Source: Planctomycetaceae bacterium
GTDB lineage: Bacteria > Planctomycetota > Planctomycetia > Planctomycetales > Planctomycetaceae
DNA length: 32,581 nt
Direction: 5' to 3'
NCBI GenBank assembly: GCA_014762625.1
Contig: JABURQ010000078.1
Span: forward strand, 1-32,581
Shown: piece by piece, positions 16,314-21,310 of the stretch
Layout of the letters: each line of letters starts with the position of its first letter
How positions within the stretch are numbered: the first letter of the stretch is position 1
Program-made: the position numbers and the translations under genes
The notes under the pieces: generated by a model
Seen by the model: only the letters and a program-made list of their open reading frames with translations
Told to the model about the DNA's origin: nothing
Databases searched by the model: none

Positions 16314-16752
16314 ATTGGTGATTTTGGATTTGGACGCGAAGGGAGGAAGTGAGAACACGGATGAGACTGAAGAAACGGATTGTCACGGAAGAATAATGGG
16401 GGGCGGGTGGCGGGGCGCACTGTGACACAGAAGCCCCCGAGAGAGGTATGATCAGGTCGAGCGGATAGCCCCGTTTGCTCGCCAAACGGGGTGCGTTAGC
16501 ACAAGAGGTAGAAGCTTAACCACGGATAACACAAATGAGAAAAGTCTCGCGCAGAGGCGCTGCGACGCGGCGAGAGAAATAGAACAACATTCGACATCCA
16601 CTGTAGGCCGATTCTCCGAATCGGCACCTTCGATGTTGATGAAGAAAAAGAATCGTCATGAATTCGCGACGGGGTGACAGACTCGCAAGAGGCTAGGTGT
16701 CAGAACCGCAAAGTTCGCGGAGGACGCAGAGAATAAGGCTGACTGAAGACAA
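16314..16752. repeat. repeat-rich intergenic stretch before the OLD gene
   Basis: No gene is visible. It holds a 9 bp perfect hairpin CCCCGTTTG/CAAACGGGG (16469-16477, 16483-16491), strings such as CCACGGATAACAC (about 16519) and CCGCAAAG...CGCGGAGGACGCAGAG (about 16706-16733) that resemble recurring intergenic repeats of environmental bacteria, a copy of the window's GGA-triloop palindrome (16603-16626), and TGACA/TGTCA facing each other (16675-16679, 16698-16702). It reads as a pile of small elements next to an acquired gene. Confidence 0.55.
16603..16626 (-). repeat. GGA-triloop palindrome, copy A
   Basis: On the minus strand GCCGATTC-GGA-GAATCGGC followed by CTAC. One of four copies in the window; the others are at 18911-18933, 19851-19875 and 19938-19962. 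Confidence 0.75.
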
Positions 16753-16781
16753 CTGAAATTTCCGAAATAGATTGATATACA
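16753..16781 (+). promoter_or_regulatory. candidate promoter of the OLD-family gene
   Basis: -35-like CTGAAA (16753-16758), 17 bp, then TATACA (16776-16781) preceded by TGA, an extended -10. Downstream are two direct copies of TGATCAAA (16800-16807, 16814-16821), 14 bp apart, a possible operator. Matches are partial. Confidence 0.35.
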
Positions 16782-16848
16782 ACAGTGATTATGCTCAGAT
16801 GATCAAACTAAACTGATCAAAGATTCAAAGAAGAATAAAGGGAACACA

Positions 16849-18822
16849 ATGCCGAATCAGCTCATCAAACTCTCCAAGGTCGTGATTCACAAATACAAGT
16901 GCATTGAAAGTGACCAAGAGTTTGATGTCGACGAGAATACCACTGTCCTTGTTGGAATGAATGAGTCCGGCAAAACATCGATCTTGGAGGTTCTAGCTAA
17001 AACAAACTACTTCGAAGATGATGATAATTTCAAACTCAATGCGACCCACGATTACCCTCGAAAAGAGAAGAAGAAGATGGACAAGAGCGATCAAAAAGCT
17101 CCTGCCATTACTTGCACATTCACTCTCACCGAAGAACTTTTGCAGTCTATTGAAGAGGATCTGGGGAAGGGAGTCTTTACCGAGACAATGCCCTCCAAAA
17201 CTTTATATTACAATGATAGGCCGATCTGGACGAATTATTCAGGAGTTGACCTCAAGAAATTTGTCACTCACAAACTGGATGAATTGGGATATTCAAAAAA
17301 CGGATTCGAAGAAAAGCTTCTGGCCGTGAAGTCGATAGAAGATTTGGAGAATTTAGCACAAGAATTGGGCACTGATGAGAGCCCGATATCTTTTGATAGC
17401 CTCAAGCGATATTACAAAAATAGTTGGGGCTGGAATGGCTCTCCACTAAATGAATATGTATTAAATGAATATGTATTCCGTACTCATATCTCCAAAAATC
17501 TACCGAAGTATCTCTATTACGATGAATACTACACACTACCCTCGCGAATTAGCATAGAGGATATGCAGTCCGAATCGCTTGAAGAATCAGAGCTGAAAAC
17601 CGCTAAAGCTCTGTTTGAACTCGCGGACATCAATACCGACGAACTTCTCAATGCATCGGAGTTTGAGGATTTCAAAGCCGAGCTTGAAGCAACACAAGCA
17701 AGTATCAGCGAAGAGTTATTTGAGTATTGGTCAGCCAATCAAAATCTTGATATTCAGTTCGATATAGATAAGGTTGAAAGTACACAAAGTGGTACAAATC
17801 CACAGGGACAAGCTGTCACCAATCGGATTGTAGAGCACATTTTGGATATTCGCGTACGCAATAACACAACAAGAGTCTCTCTTCCCTTGAAAAATCGCAG
17901 CAAGGGTTTCAACTGGTTTTTCTCATTTCTGGTGTGGTTCAAGAAAATCCAGGAAGATGCAGATTCGGCATACGTGATTCTACTTGATGAACCAGGACTG
18001 AATCTTCACGCATCAGCCCAGGCAGACTTGTTACGATTCATCGAAGATCTGTCAGAAGATTATCAGATCATTTATACAACCCATTCGCCTTTCATGGTTG
18101 ATTCAGAGCAACTGAATCGCGTGCGCACAGTCGTCGAGACAAAAAAGGGATCATCAATATCCACAACCATCCAAGAAAAAGATCCTCGCACTCTCTTTCC
18201 GCTTCAAGCAGCTCTTGGTTACGACATAGCGCAAAACCTATTCATTTCCAAAAACAACCTTTTGGTGGAGGGCGTTTCTGATCTGATTTACTTGCAAGGC
18301 GTTTCAGCTTTGTTGGAGGGAAAGGGGCGAACGTACTTGAATCCAGAAGTGACCATTGTGCCTGTAGGAGGACTAGAAAAAGTAGCTACGTTCGTTTCTT
18401 TACTCAGAGGAAGCAAGCTCAATTTCGGCTGCTTACTGGACTCTAGCATCGATCAATCGAGCCAGGATCGATTGAACAACATGGTTCAACACAAGATCAT
18501 CAAACAAAAACAGATCGTCTACTTCGATGAATTTGTGACTGGAACTGAAGCCGACATCGAAGATTTATTCGCAAAAAGCGAATATCTGGATCTGTTTAAC
18601 ACTGCTTTTGATGAGCATGCTGAGATTGCAGAGGCAGATCTTGACGCGGGAATCAATCGAGTTATCGCACAGATCAACACACACCTGGGAGTAACGAGGT
18701 TTAATCACTACAGGCCTGCTAATGAATTTGCAAAATCAGAGGCAGCTCAATCTGGGCTGAGCGATGCGACCCTTGATCGTTTTGAGGCGGTATTCGAACA
18801 CGTCAACAAATTCTTTAAGTAA
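16849..18822 (+). CDS. OLD-family ATPase / TOPRIM endonuclease
   Basis: 657 residues. N-terminal ABC-type ATPase: Walker A GMNESGKT at 36-43; Walker B with following Glu ILLDEP (D380-E381); switch His in YTTHSPF. The ATPase is split by a long helical insertion. C-terminal TOPRIM domain: E474 in LLVEGVSD, then a Gly-rich VPVGGLEK, then LLDSSID with D531. OLD (overcoming lysogenization defect) proteins are nucleases, many of them phage defence factors. The DxD of TOPRIM reads D-S-S here, so activity needs testing. No UvrD-like partner follows, so this is a stand-alone (class 1-like) OLD and not Gabija. AAGGGA lies a few bases before the ATG. Composition is visibly more AT-rich than its neighbours, suggesting horizontal gain. 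Confidence 0.88.
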   Translation: MPNQLIKLSKVVIHKYKCIESDQEFDVDENTTVLVGMNESGKTSILEVLAKTNYFEDDDNFKLNATHDYPRKEKKKMDKSDQKAPAITCTFTLTEELLQSIEEDLGKGVFTETMPSKTLYYNDRPIWTNYSGVDLKKFVTHKLDELGYSKNGFEEKLLAVKSIEDLENLAQELGTDESPISFDSLKRYYKNSWGWNGSPLNEYVLNEYVFRTHISKNLPKYLYYDEYYTLPSRISIEDMQSESLEESELKTAKALFELADINTDELLNASEFEDFKAELEATQASISEELFEYWSANQNLDIQFDIDKVESTQSGTNPQGQAVTNRIVEHILDIRVRNNTTRVSLPLKNRSKGFNWFFSFLVWFKKIQEDADSAYVILLDEPGLNLHASAQADLLRFIEDLSEDYQIIYTTHSPFMVDSEQLNRVRTVVETKKGSSISTTIQEKDPRTLFPLQAALGYDIAQNLFISKNNLLVEGVSDLIYLQGVSALLEGKGRTYLNPEVTIVPVGGLEKVATFVSLLRGSKLNFGCLLDSSIDQSSQDRLNNMVQHKIIKQKQIVYFDEFVTGTEADIEDLFAKSEYLDLFNTAFDEHAEIAEADLDAGINRVIAQINTHLGVTRFNHYRPANEFAKSEAAQSGLSDATLDRFEAVFEHVNKFFK

Positions 18823-18855
18823 CTCACTCTATAACACCCAAAACGGAGACTTAAA

Positions 18856-18896
18856 AGCACGAACAGGATTGCTCCCATTCGTGCTTCTGATGTTTT
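18856..18896 (+). terminator. possible terminator after the OLD-family gene
   Basis: Stem AGCACGAA/TTCGTGCT (18856-18863, 18878-18885) with a smaller GGA/TCC pairing inside. The T-run follows after six bases rather than at once, so termination is probable but not certain. Confidence 0.5.
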
Positions 18897-18910
18897 TGTG
18901 GCGGTATTTC

Positions 18911-18933
18911 TGGCCGGTGGAACCGGCCTTACA
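18911..18933 (+). repeat. GGA-triloop palindrome, copy B
   Basis: GGCCGGT-GGA-ACCGGCC followed by TTACA, between the convergent OLD and DUF59 genes. The stem sequence differs from the other copies but pairing, loop and right flank are kept. Confidence 0.6.
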
Positions 18934-18952
18934 TCCCAATCAGATTGGACAC

Positions 18953-19258
18953 CTAAAAAATCCCGAGTTGGTCGCGGGCGTCGTCTGTCATCCGTTCTGG
19001 AGACCATGGCGGAGTCATCACCAGCGTGATGGCGGCTTCGTCCACGTCGTCGAGTTGCTCCAGTGCCATCTTGGACTGATTGATGATCTGCGGTCCGGCG
19101 GGGCAGGCGGGGGAGGTGAGGGTCATCTCGACGAAGACTTTCTTGCCCTCTTCGTCGTAATTGACCGAATACACCAGACCGAGATCGACGATGTTGATCA
19201 TCAATTCCGGGTCGATCACCTGCTTCAATGATTCGAGATATTGATCGTCTTCGGCCAT
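18953..19258 (-). CDS. DUF59/MIP18 iron-sulfur assembly factor (SufT-like)
   Basis: 101 residues of the MIP18 fold: VIDPELMINIVDLGLVYSV, then EMTLTSPACPAGP with the conserved Cys52, then VDEAAITLVMTPPWSPERM. Proteins of this type (SufT, PaaD, Cia2) help deliver Fe-S clusters to target proteins. It is the last gene of the suf block on the minus strand, 246 bp after the Rieske gene, which agrees with the role. I do not use the symbol sufT because single-domain DUF59 proteins vary. Confidence 0.88.
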   Translation of the reverse strand: MAEDDQYLESLKQVIDPELMINIVDLGLVYSVNYDEEGKKVFVEMTLTSPACPAGPQIINQSKMALEQLDDVDEAAITLVMTPPWSPERMTDDARDQLGIF

Positions 19259-19504
19259 GATATGGGTTCCTGTTTGGAGATGTTTTTTTGAGACCTCCTC
19301 ACCCCGTCCCGGAAAACGAATTCCGATTGCTTGCGCCCTCGACCTCGATCCTCGCTAATCGCTCGGCGGTCTCGGTTACACTCCAAAGTAGGAGACGGTG
19401 GCATGCAGGTTGTCTCGATGATTCGCCAGCCGACGCTGATTGTGGCCTTCTCCTCCTCTAAAGGAGAAGGTGGCCGAAGGCCGGATGAGGAGGTGATAAA
19501 TTAT
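19259..19504. repeat. ~200 bp element with inverted ends between Rieske and DUF59 genes
   Basis: ACCTCCTCA at 19293-19301 and its inverse TGAGGAGGT at 19486-19494 bound a 202 bp segment; pairing extends to 12 positions with one mismatch. Near the right end are CCTTCTCCT/AGGAGAAGG (19446-19454, 19462-19470) and GGCC-GAA-GGCC (19472-19482). It looks like a non-coding MITE-like or intergenic repeat. No ORF with a plausible start is seen. Confidence 0.5.
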
Positions 19505-19819
19505 TTACTCTGGTACTTCAACGTAAATGCCATCGTCGCGGACGTCAACATTCATTGTCTGGACCGGTTCGGTGGCCGGCATGCAGAGGGCTTTGCCGTC
19601 CTTCAAGTCGAACTTGGCTCCGTGTCGCGGACAGACGATGGCACAATCTTCAATCGGTCCGTCCGTGAGCGGCTGACCGTCGTGGGTACAGACATCTTCA
19701 ATGGCGTAATAATCATCGCCGATGCAGACCAGTAATGCCGGCAGATCGTCGATGATAAAGGATTTGCGGTCTCCCGCTGTGAGTTCACCCGGTTCGGCAA
19801 CCTTCTCGAATTCGGCCAC
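19505..19819 (-). CDS. Rieske [2Fe-2S] ferredoxin
   Basis: 104 residues, a complete small Rieske ferredoxin of the non-heme oxygenase type. Cluster ligands are C44 and H46 in CTHDG and C63 and H66 in CPRHG. No membrane segment, so a soluble cytoplasmic electron carrier. It sits inside the suf block, downstream of sufD across a repeat-rich 165 bp gap. No oxygenase gene is nearby, so a role in Fe-S assembly or electron supply to it is inferred from context, as known for Rieske-like proteins in some other suf operons. Confidence 0.92.
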   Translation of the reverse strand: MAEFEKVAEPGELTAGDRKSFIIDDLPALLVCIGDDYYAIEDVCTHDGQPLTDGPIEDCAIVCPRHGAKFDLKDGKALCMPATEPVQTMNVDVRDDGIYVEVPE

Positions 19820-19840
19820 GTTGTTCCTTTGGTTTGTTGT

Positions 19841-19972
19841 ACGTCGCTCATGCCGACTCGGAGAGTCGGCCTACGTGAGGGCGGCTGTGATTTGTTGTGG
19901 GGCAGGGGCTCCCTGCCGTATTGTTCTAAGTCGCTCGTGCCGACATGGAGTGTCGGCCTGCGTGAGAGCGGA
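19841..19972. repeat. three-hairpin array between sufD and the Rieske gene
   Basis: Three palindromes in a row: GCCGACTC-GGA-GAGTCGGC (19852-19870), GGCAGGG-GCT-CCCTGCC (19901-19917) and GCCGACA/TGTCGGC around TGGAG (19939-19957). The first and third also share flanks (GTCGCTC before, CGTGAG after), so they are copies C and D of the GGA-triloop repeat. If sufD and the Rieske gene are co-transcribed, the transcript carries all three. Confidence 0.75.
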
Positions 19973-19984
19973 ATGTTCTTGGTA

Positions 19985-21310
19985 TCAGTCGCCGATGCCC
20001 AGTTTCTGGATGACGGCGTCGTTCAAGGTTTTGCGAACCGCTTCGACGGGGATGCGGTCGTAGACGGTCTGGAAGAATCCTTCGACGATCATGTGCATCG
20101 CTTCGTAACGGGAGAGCCCGCGGGACATGGCGTAAAAGACCTGTTCTTCATCGACTTGTCCAGCCGTGGCTCCGTGAGTACATTTCACATCGTCGGCTTC
20201 GATTTCGAGGCCGGGGATGGCGTCCGTTCGGGCGGTATCGGAGAGCATCAAGGCGTCACTGCGTTGGTAGCCGTCTGTCAGTTGAGCTTTCTTGTCGACT
20301 TTGATCATCCCCCGCCAGATCACGCGCGACTTGTCGCGGAGCACCTCTTTGTAGAGGAGGTCGCTGCGGGTTTGCATGTCGTTATGAGTCTGTTGGGTGT
20401 AGTAGGAGATTTTCTGTTTGTCGGTGGCGAAGGTGACGCCGTTGACCTCGCCGACCGAGCCGCGACCGTTCAGGACGACATCCTGATGAACGTGGGCGAG
20501 TTTCGCACCCAGCGCGGAGACGGTCCACTGGACGAAGCCGTTCGCCTCGACAAGGCCGGACTGATGGGCGAAGTGGTAGGTTTTCTGATTCCAGTTCTGC
20601 AACTGCACGTATCGCAGGTTGGCATCTTTGCCGACAATCAATTCGACGCAGCCGAGATGCAGACCGGGGGATTCTTCATCGCCGGAAAGTGTTTCTTCCA
20701 GTAACGTCGCGGAAGCGTTATCTTCAAGGATGACCAGCGTGTGGCTGAGGTCGGCGGTTCCCGCCTTGGTCAGTGCGATCAGGGAATGCAGGGGGGCATC
20801 GACTGAAACATTGGCGGGGACGTAGAGGACGGTTCCGCCGGTCCAGAAGGCGGCGTGCCAGGCGGAGAATCGATCCCGGTCCGGCGTGACCGCTTTGGTC
20901 ATTAAATAGGGTTCGAGAATCTCGCGATGCGTATGCACTAATGCGGAGAGATCGCCGAACACGACCCCTTGCTCGGCGAGCGAAGGATCGACCTGAGACA
21001 AGGTGCAGTGACCGTTTTCGTGAGTTACCTGGCCTTTGAACTCGGCTTCATTCTGTAATTGGGTTGCGAGTTTCGAACCGGTCGGCGTTTCGGAACTGAG
21101 AGCGAATTTCTGCGGTTGAAACGTCCGCAGATCGACCCGTTTCCATTCTTCCGGATCGAGCGGCTCGCAGAGTTTTTCGTTGTAAATGTCGAACGCTTTT
21201 TTTCGCAGGTCGATCACCCAGTCGGGATCGTCGCGTTGCGCCAGAAAGGCCTCGAAGGCTTCCTGATTGAATGTTTCCGGAGGTGCTACGGTGGTAGTGC
21301 TCATGAGCAT
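19985..21310 (-). CDS. sufD: Fe-S assembly scaffold protein SufD
   Basis: 441 residues; partner of SufB in the SufBC2D scaffold where Fe-S clusters are built. Seen: an N-terminal helical part (DDPDWVIDLRKKAFDIYN) and the beta-helix core with FWTGGTVLYVPANV, LVILEDNASATLLEE, CTHGATAGQVDEEQVFYAMSRGL and the C-terminal EAMHMIVEGFF. The His in CTHGAT matches the conserved SufD His. Two ATG codons (21310, 21304) are possible. Neither has a clear ribosome binding site, because a heptamer repeat occupies the region just upstream. Confidence 0.95.
   Translation of the reverse strand: MLMSTTTVAPPETFNQEAFEAFLAQRDDPDWVIDLRKKAFDIYNEKLCEPLDPEEWKRVDLRTFQPQKFALSSETPTGSKLATQLQNEAEFKGQVTHENGHCTLSQVDPSLAEQGVVFGDLSALVHTHREILEPYLMTKAVTPDRDRFSAWHAAFWTGGTVLYVPANVSVDAPLHSLIALTKAGTADLSHTLVILEDNASATLLEETLSGDEESPGLHLGCVELIVGKDANLRYVQLQNWNQKTYHFAHQSGLVEANGFVQWTVSALGAKLAHVHQDVVLNGRGSVGEVNGVTFATDKQKISYYTQQTHNDMQTRSDLLYKEVLRDKSRVIWRGMIKVDKKAQLTDGYQRSDALMLSDTARTDAIPGLEIEADDVKCTHGATAGQVDEEQVFYAMSRGLSRYEAMHMIVEGFFQTVYDRIPVEAVRKTLNDAVIQKLGIGD

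Follow-up and report, generated by a model that had tools for sequence, protein, structure and literature searches.

How short palindromes with a common GGA loop came to lie scattered between the genes of a planctomycete, and whether they form one family, is the question raised by a 32,581-nucleotide (nt) stretch of Planctomycetaceae bacterium (assembly GCA_014762625.1, contig JABURQ010000078.1, positions 1 to 32,581 of the forward strand), hereafter the window. A preliminary description reported four copies of one 24-nt palindrome, with a fixed GGA triloop and arms under selection for pairing, and likened them to the repetitive extragenic palindromes (REPs) mobilised by REP-associated tyrosine transposases (RAYTs). 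The copies probably represent two REP families, termed here F1 and F2, both tagged with GTAG, the hairpin form of which would be recognised and copied by a RAYT. The REP reading is supported by the tag architecture, the copy number, the extragenic placement, the amplification restricted to one genus, and the hairpins of the same architecture found beside the RAYT genes of relatives. F1 and F2 thus belong to an already known kind of element, the GTAG-type REPs.

The four GGA hairpins are indeed present, with arms of 7-8 bp. Those at 16607-16625 on the minus strand (GCCGATTC-GGA-GAATCGGC) and at 19852-19870 (GCCGACTC-GGA-GAGTCGGC) each form eight Watson-Crick pairs. The hairpin at 19939-19957 (GCCGACAT-GGA-GTGTCGGC) has seven pairs and one T-G wobble, the only one of the set, and that at 18912-18928 (GGCCGGT-GGA-ACCGGCC) has seven pairs. 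Their right flanks are CTACAG, CTACGT, CTGCGT and TTACAT, respectively. Five GGA-loop hairpins with at least seven pairs (G-T allowed) occur in the window against a mean of 1.5 in shuffled sequences, and four or more are reached in 15 of 200 shuffles; since this excess is modest, the case for the hairpins rests on the genome. A covariance model of F1 (64 positions, built from 20 copies) matches the window in three places only. F1 copy 1 lies at 16582-16645 on the minus strand (62.5 bits), with its GTAG tag at 16603-16606 read on the plus strand; copy 2 at 19832-19894 on the plus strand (58.9 bits), where CTAC at 19871-19874 is the GTAG tag of the minus strand; and copy 3 at 19919-19982 on the plus strand (65.2 bits), with a degenerate tag, CTGC. 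The model misses the fourth copy, starting at 18911, whose hairpin is that of a second genome-wide family; the grouping of all four into one family is therefore abandoned in favour of two. This F2 copy, a GTAA tag with GGCCGGT-TCC-ACCGGCC, occupies 18912-18932 on the minus strand.

On its tagged strand, F1 is made of GTAG, a GCCGAC(TC/AC) stem and a TCC loop: GTAG is directly followed by GCCGAC, then TCC(T) and GTCGGC, after which most copies continue with ATGAGCGA, ATGTTCGA or ACCTTCGA. The conserved unit spans about 64 nt, and not the 24 nt first proposed, and a 131-nt form exists as well. The model search of the genome of the window (G000), in which the best 150 of 2459 candidates were scored, returned at least 38 rows at E<0.1, corresponding to at least 37 distinct places, so that the counts for this genome are lower bounds; two near-identical copies at the ends of contigs C51 and C80 may be one place. 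A renewed search of 393 kb, comprising the window, locus L084 and 20 regions around known copies, found no further short F1 copy. Among 39 other genomes, the model has ten and four matches in two congeners (species of the same genus; G001 and G002 below) and none in the 37 other relatives. The core pattern GTAGGCCGACN{5,7}GTCGGC likewise occurs ten times in the own genome against none in reversed-pattern controls, and once in one congener. Single matches in three of the other 168 genomes of the family are at chance level, because 12 genomes have one match to the reversed control. On this pattern, as on that of F2 (below), the genome-wide excess anticipated for the palindromes is decisive. A looser pattern, GCCGN{7,15}CGGCCTAC, shows no excess by count (26 against 24 in the reversed control), and 19 of its 26 matches are hairpin copies on inspection. 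Of the three single core matches outside the genus, one (G098, locus L206) is an exact F1 core with different flanks.

The F1 unit could be anchored in 35 of 39 own-genome rows and in 9 of 14 rows from the sister species. An intact GTAG tag, visible as CTAC behind the hairpin, is present in 28 of the 49 copies (18 of 35 in the own genome, 10 of 14 in the sisters); of the 21 others, 18 differ from it by a single base. The supposedly fixed GGA triloop holds for the 34 copies with a 3-nt loop, 33 of which have GGA; in the remaining 15 of the 49 the loop is 4 nt long and, in 12 cases, reads AGGA. Most sister copies have the left outer arm in common and a different right arm, with the tag and hairpin unchanged. 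Genes were called with a home-made codon score (called coding fraction 0.65), and F1 falls inside a called gene in one of 39 own and none of 14 sister copies. Next to an F1 copy on contig C17 (L041) stands a group II intron (Rfam RF02005, RF00029).

F2 consists of GTAA or GTAG followed by GGCCGGT-TCC-ACCGGCC. Its hairpin pattern, GGCCGGTN{3,4}ACCGGCC, occurs in 24 places of the own genome, 43 of G001 and 8 of G002, and never in reversed controls. Tags and placement were read from a fetched subset of 21 rows, four of them repeats of the same places; the GTAG or GTAA tag is found in these 21 rows (17 distinct places), and one row (one of the 17 places) lies inside a called gene. Six own-genome pairs stand exactly 46 bp apart in opposite orientation, as judged from the loop in all six and from the tags in two, and the window copy is single. 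Such pairs have the layout of REP doublets forming hairpins (REPINs), a class that reportedly goes back to Bertels and Rainey in 2011. With stems of 7-8 pairs and loops of 3-4 nt, both families fall within the REP range of a 6-13 bp stem and a short loop.

The 131-nt form of F1 was recognised through CCGAGCGATNAGC: at 11 of the 22 own-genome places with this sequence, the place of the triloop between the F1 arms is taken by a loop of about 75 nt. A multi-branched fold is predicted for this unit, with z from -2.4 to -3.5 for the two strands of two copies. Five loci with it (L244, L251, L252, L254 and L256) have no Rfam match up to E=1. The 64-nt and 131-nt forms have the same imperfectly complementary outer arms (AACATTC...GAATGTT), and some short copies also possess the wider flanks of the long form, so that one form may derive from the other. 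A contig end is only a few hundred bases away from the long or short copies at L244, L245, L252, L254, L256 and L088, and it is always their right side that faces this end, as if a longer, unassembled repeat followed.

Structure within the stem had been taken as a sign of selection, on the grounds that the arms change in a compensatory way. Stem counts comprise 49 F1 copies, with four long forms left out and one poorly aligned row (L081:3682) included. Paired arms are preserved more than by chance: after shuffling of the 3' arms, the copies with 3-nt loops pair at a mean of 233 of 272 positions against 250 observed, a value reached in 0 of 2000 shuffles, and those with 4-nt loops at 99 of 120 against 107 observed (5 of 2000 shuffles). 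The double changes cluster at the two innermost pairs and divide the copies among a few master sequences, namely ACGGAGT in 12 copies, TCGGAGA in 8 and AGAGGACT in 5. Elsewhere in the stem most deviations are uncompensated, the exception being pair 6 of the 16607-16625 copy. The compensatory change in the arms thus mostly reflects a few subfamilies; the structure appears to have been copied along with the family, and neither site-by-site selection nor compensatory evolution locus by locus is supported. The same holds for a co-evolving second helix in the outer flanks. Such a helix is possible in 29 of 35 short own copies (at least five outer pairs), and the arms are more weakly paired in the sister species. 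Pairing between the two outer arms of one copy is no better than between arms taken from different copies: in the own genome 328 and 140 of 2000 shuffles are as good, and in the sisters 1499 and 1726 of 2000.

RAYT genes are found in the genus and beyond, together with hairpins. The own genome has nine matches to the Pfam Y1_Tnp domain, eight as separate loci and a ninth inside L085. Those that are RAYT-like are accompanied on one or both sides by hairpins tagged GGGTGC or GGGTGG. They form a separate RAYT class of the own genome, seen at L003, L004, L007, L183 and other loci, and exemplified by L004, which passes the NCBIfam RAYT cut-off with 93 bits and has GGGTGC followed by CACTGGCGTCTCGCCAGTG on both sides. 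Two others, L002 and L006, differ in look and are devoid of such hairpins. A second RAYT class, with GTAG hairpins, is present in 63 of 150 genomes of the family. Thirty of its loci were fetched from the matches in these 63 genomes, and in 29 of them a GTAG hairpin lies close to the gene, at locus positions 900-2900. GTAG hairpins number 85 in 102 kb of these loci against 18 in 343 kb of own-genome regions, the latter chosen around F1 copies. Three proteins of this class were compared with NCBIfam, and all are REP-associated tyrosine transposases (179-187 bits, cut-off 80); 14 aligned members display PDHxH and Y(I/V)HxN motifs. The hairpin arms differ between groups of genes, and some genes have the same arms, e.g., GGTCCGC.

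For F2, a partner was found in congener G001. Its intact RAYT L168 is flanked by the same repeat on both sides, the arrangement known as a REPtron: GTAG followed by GGCCGGTTCCACCGGCC, which is the F2 hairpin and that of the window copy, on one side, and GTAG followed by GGCCGGTTTTACCGGCC, with the same arms and a TTT loop, on the other. A second RAYT of G001, L161, has GTAG followed by GGCAGGGGCCTCCCTGCC on both sides; a third hairpin of this type, GTGG with GGCAGGGG-C-TCCCTGCC, lies in the window at 19897-19917 (plus strand) between two F1 copies and closely resembles it. The other RAYT matches of G001 are partial or broken.

Judged from sequence, the two families are probably to be explained as follows. 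Single-stranded F1 or F2 DNA would fold into a 7-8 bp hairpin whose 5' foot carries the unpaired GTAG. A RAYT, an HUH tyrosine transposase related to IS200/IS605, is expected to recognise this form and to copy it to new, mostly intergenic sites. In the 64-nt F1 unit, an outer imperfect helix would enclose the core of tag and stem, and in the 131-nt form a multi-branched loop would surround the same core. We infer that a RAYT did the copying of both families, that the enzyme of F1, and in the own genome that of F2, has been lost, and that what is left of both families in this genome is now in decay. Copy numbers differ between the sister species, and so do right arms. The data support F1 being an orphan family, whose RAYT is not known, and F2 having its RAYT in a sister species.

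Several published systems share this architecture. The GTAG super-family of REPs (Di Nocera et al. 2013, PMC3733652) comprises 24 families and is reported also from the Planctomycetes-Verrucomicrobia-Chlamydiae superphylum, with several families coexisting in R. baltica. Common to it and to F1 and F2 are a 6-13 bp stem with short loops and GTAG at one of its ends, and dispersed, intergenic copies downstream of genes; the likeness is one of architecture. In contrast to the elements presented there, F1 possesses an outer helix as well as a 131-nt form, and the genomes searched contain no RAYT belonging to it. The subclasses of TnpA-REP (RAYT) described in PMC6006769 have a 5' GT[AG]G guide at the foot of hairpins near tnpA genes, as here. 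Its "double foot" forms are nearly matched by one F1 copy (G000:C29:69445), with GTAG on one side and CTAT on the other, although several kb separate this copy from the RAYT genes on the same contig. The GTAG-class RAYTs, with DHLH, WQ and YIHxNP motifs, fit no single row in the part of its subclass table that was compared. REP singlets have been described as decaying remnants (PMC8049555). F2 resembles REPINs in its inverted pairs at a fixed 46 bp, and the genome holding the F2 RAYT also holds most copies (43 in G001, against 24 in the own genome and 8 in G002, both devoid of it). F1, unlike REPINs, is mostly single, and its two neighbouring window copies are direct.

A number of observations on F1 weigh against copying by a GTAG-class RAYT. 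No RAYT flanked by F1, or carrying F1 arms, was found in G000, G001, G002 or the 30 fetched loci; the transposase sought on the strength of the preliminary description was thus found for F2 (L168) and not for F1. The RAYT matches of G001 have arms other than those of F1, or none recognised. At E<=1e-10, no RAYT of the GTAG class is found in the own genome; a profile search yields nine weaker RAYT matches (best 8e-18), and every one of these loci has GGGTGC or GGGTGG hairpins. None of the nine own-genome Y1_Tnp matches adjoins the short form of F1. The long form follows L003, a GGGTGC-type RAYT pseudogene, at about 70 nt, and on contig C151 it stands about 1.1 kb from another RAYT-like gene. 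Close inverted pairs of F1 were seen on two contigs only, C68, where both copies are short, and C108, where a long copy is paired with a short one; the copies are otherwise mostly single, which makes the REPIN layout atypical for F1. The proposed mobilisation of REP elements by a RAYT nonetheless stands on architecture, copy number, placement, the RAYTs of relatives and the F2 hairpins at L168, with F1 still lacking its enzyme.

The alternative that fares best, although unlikely, is that F1 acts in transcripts, as an RNA hairpin kept downstream of genes in one orientation, where it would protect or end the mRNA, the likeness to REPs reflecting its origin only. It draws on orientation, counted in 39 own rows (35 short and 4 long, with the C80 copy and the second C68 copy excluded) and 14 sister rows. 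Where a stop codon lies within 150 nt, F1 has its GTAG strand in the sense direction of that gene in 13 of 14 cases in the own genome and in 4 of 4 in the sisters. The bias is also seen at 100 nt (9/10 and 3/3) and at 200 nt (13/16 and 5/6), and weakens with distance (13/16 and 6/9 at 300 nt; 17/25 and 7/13 at 1500 nt). Replication direction was tested as its cause and fails to explain it, because genes further away are co-oriented in 135 of 267 cases and the GC skew is positive in 14 of 28. For F2 no bias of this kind is seen (co-orientation in 2 of 5 rows, or in 2 of 4 places, as one place occurs twice), and the possible outer pairing of the short copies, described above, would also suit an RNA hairpin. 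However, the 150-nt limit was chosen after inspection of the data, two of the window copies stand next to each other, and one of the sister copies occupies the orthologue of a window site. The lean is also found at 5' ends (9 of 12 own genes starting within 150 nt) and among adjacent genes of either kind (35 of 54). Selection on the RNA fold is at odds with the mostly uncompensated deviations and with outer arms that are no better paired within copies. The flanks, read by eye, show no T run after the F1 hairpin, the GTAG strand mostly continuing as given above, so F1 is no intrinsic terminator. Some sense bias also has a precedent, since GTAG ends are reported to often supply the TAG stop of flanking open reading frames (PMC3733652).

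A second, quite doubtful alternative retains a RAYT origin and denies that F1 is an orphan: F1 would be moved by the GGGTGC/GGGTGG class of its own genome. Such RAYTs are at hand (L004 being above the NCBIfam cut-off), the long form stands near two of them, and hairpins of the GTGG/GGGTGG type often abut F1 on its left. At the own-genome loci examined, however, the hairpins beside these RAYTs have other tags and arms, and none of the genes adjoins the short form. Finally, F1 is very improbably a miniature element that ends in inverted repeats and depends on a transposase of another kind, since, although both forms have the same imperfectly complementary outer arms, the right one changes in most sister copies while tag and hairpin stay constant, repeats next to RAYT genes have this very GTAG architecture, and no target duplication is evident by eye in the flanks (no systematic test was made).

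F1 and F2 as GTAG-type REPs are set in the window among identifiable genes. F1 copies 2 and 3, in direct orientation, share with the 19897-19917 hairpin the spacer between two genes of a SUF cluster, both on the minus strand. The upstream neighbour is a sufD-type gene (19985-21310; SufBD core, Pfam PF01458; TIGR01981 sufD above cut-off), the stop of which is 3 nt from copy 3, and the downstream one encodes a Rieske [2Fe-2S] protein (19505-19819, Pfam PF00355). The orthologous spacer holds one F1 copy in G001 and none in G002. F1 copy 1 and the F2 copy flank a gene for an OLD/GajA/AriA-like ATPase-TOPRIM protein (16849-18822, plus strand; Pfam AAA_15 and OLD-like_TOPRIM; PADLOC AriA, Old and GajA models), and the two sides of this gene match different contigs in each congener. 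A role in phage defence is possible for it. Other repeated palindromes are located upstream of copy 1, at 16406-16439 (GGTGGCGGGGCGC...GCCCCCG) and 16474-16508 (TTTGCTCGCCAAACGGGGTGCGTTAGCACAAGAGG), the latter with about 15 occurrences among the matches listed in G001 and G002. A GTGG-tagged hairpin at 19442-19490, CCTTCTCC...GGAGAAGG running into GTGGCCGAAGGCCGGATGAGG, has about 15 among the matches listed in G002. Within the window, Rfam gives nothing at gathering score, and no tRNA was found.

In the literature searches, only passing mention of REPs came up for this bacterial group, to which two REP families are now added. Across three related genomes, F2 can be compared with and without its transposase, and F1 seems to be devoid of a partner. 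They offer a natural setting in which to ask what keeps REP copies after the loss of a RAYT, and whether selection acts on their orientation behind genes. Of the findings, the orientation bias and the long form merit further attention, the remainder being ordinary for a REP-rich genome. Speculatively, and with rather low probability, F1 has lost its transposase and now serves as (or was placed as) a transcript-oriented 3'-end element, the 131-nt form encoding a compact multi-branched RNA fold; if so, host transcription, and not a transposase, would decide which copies persist.

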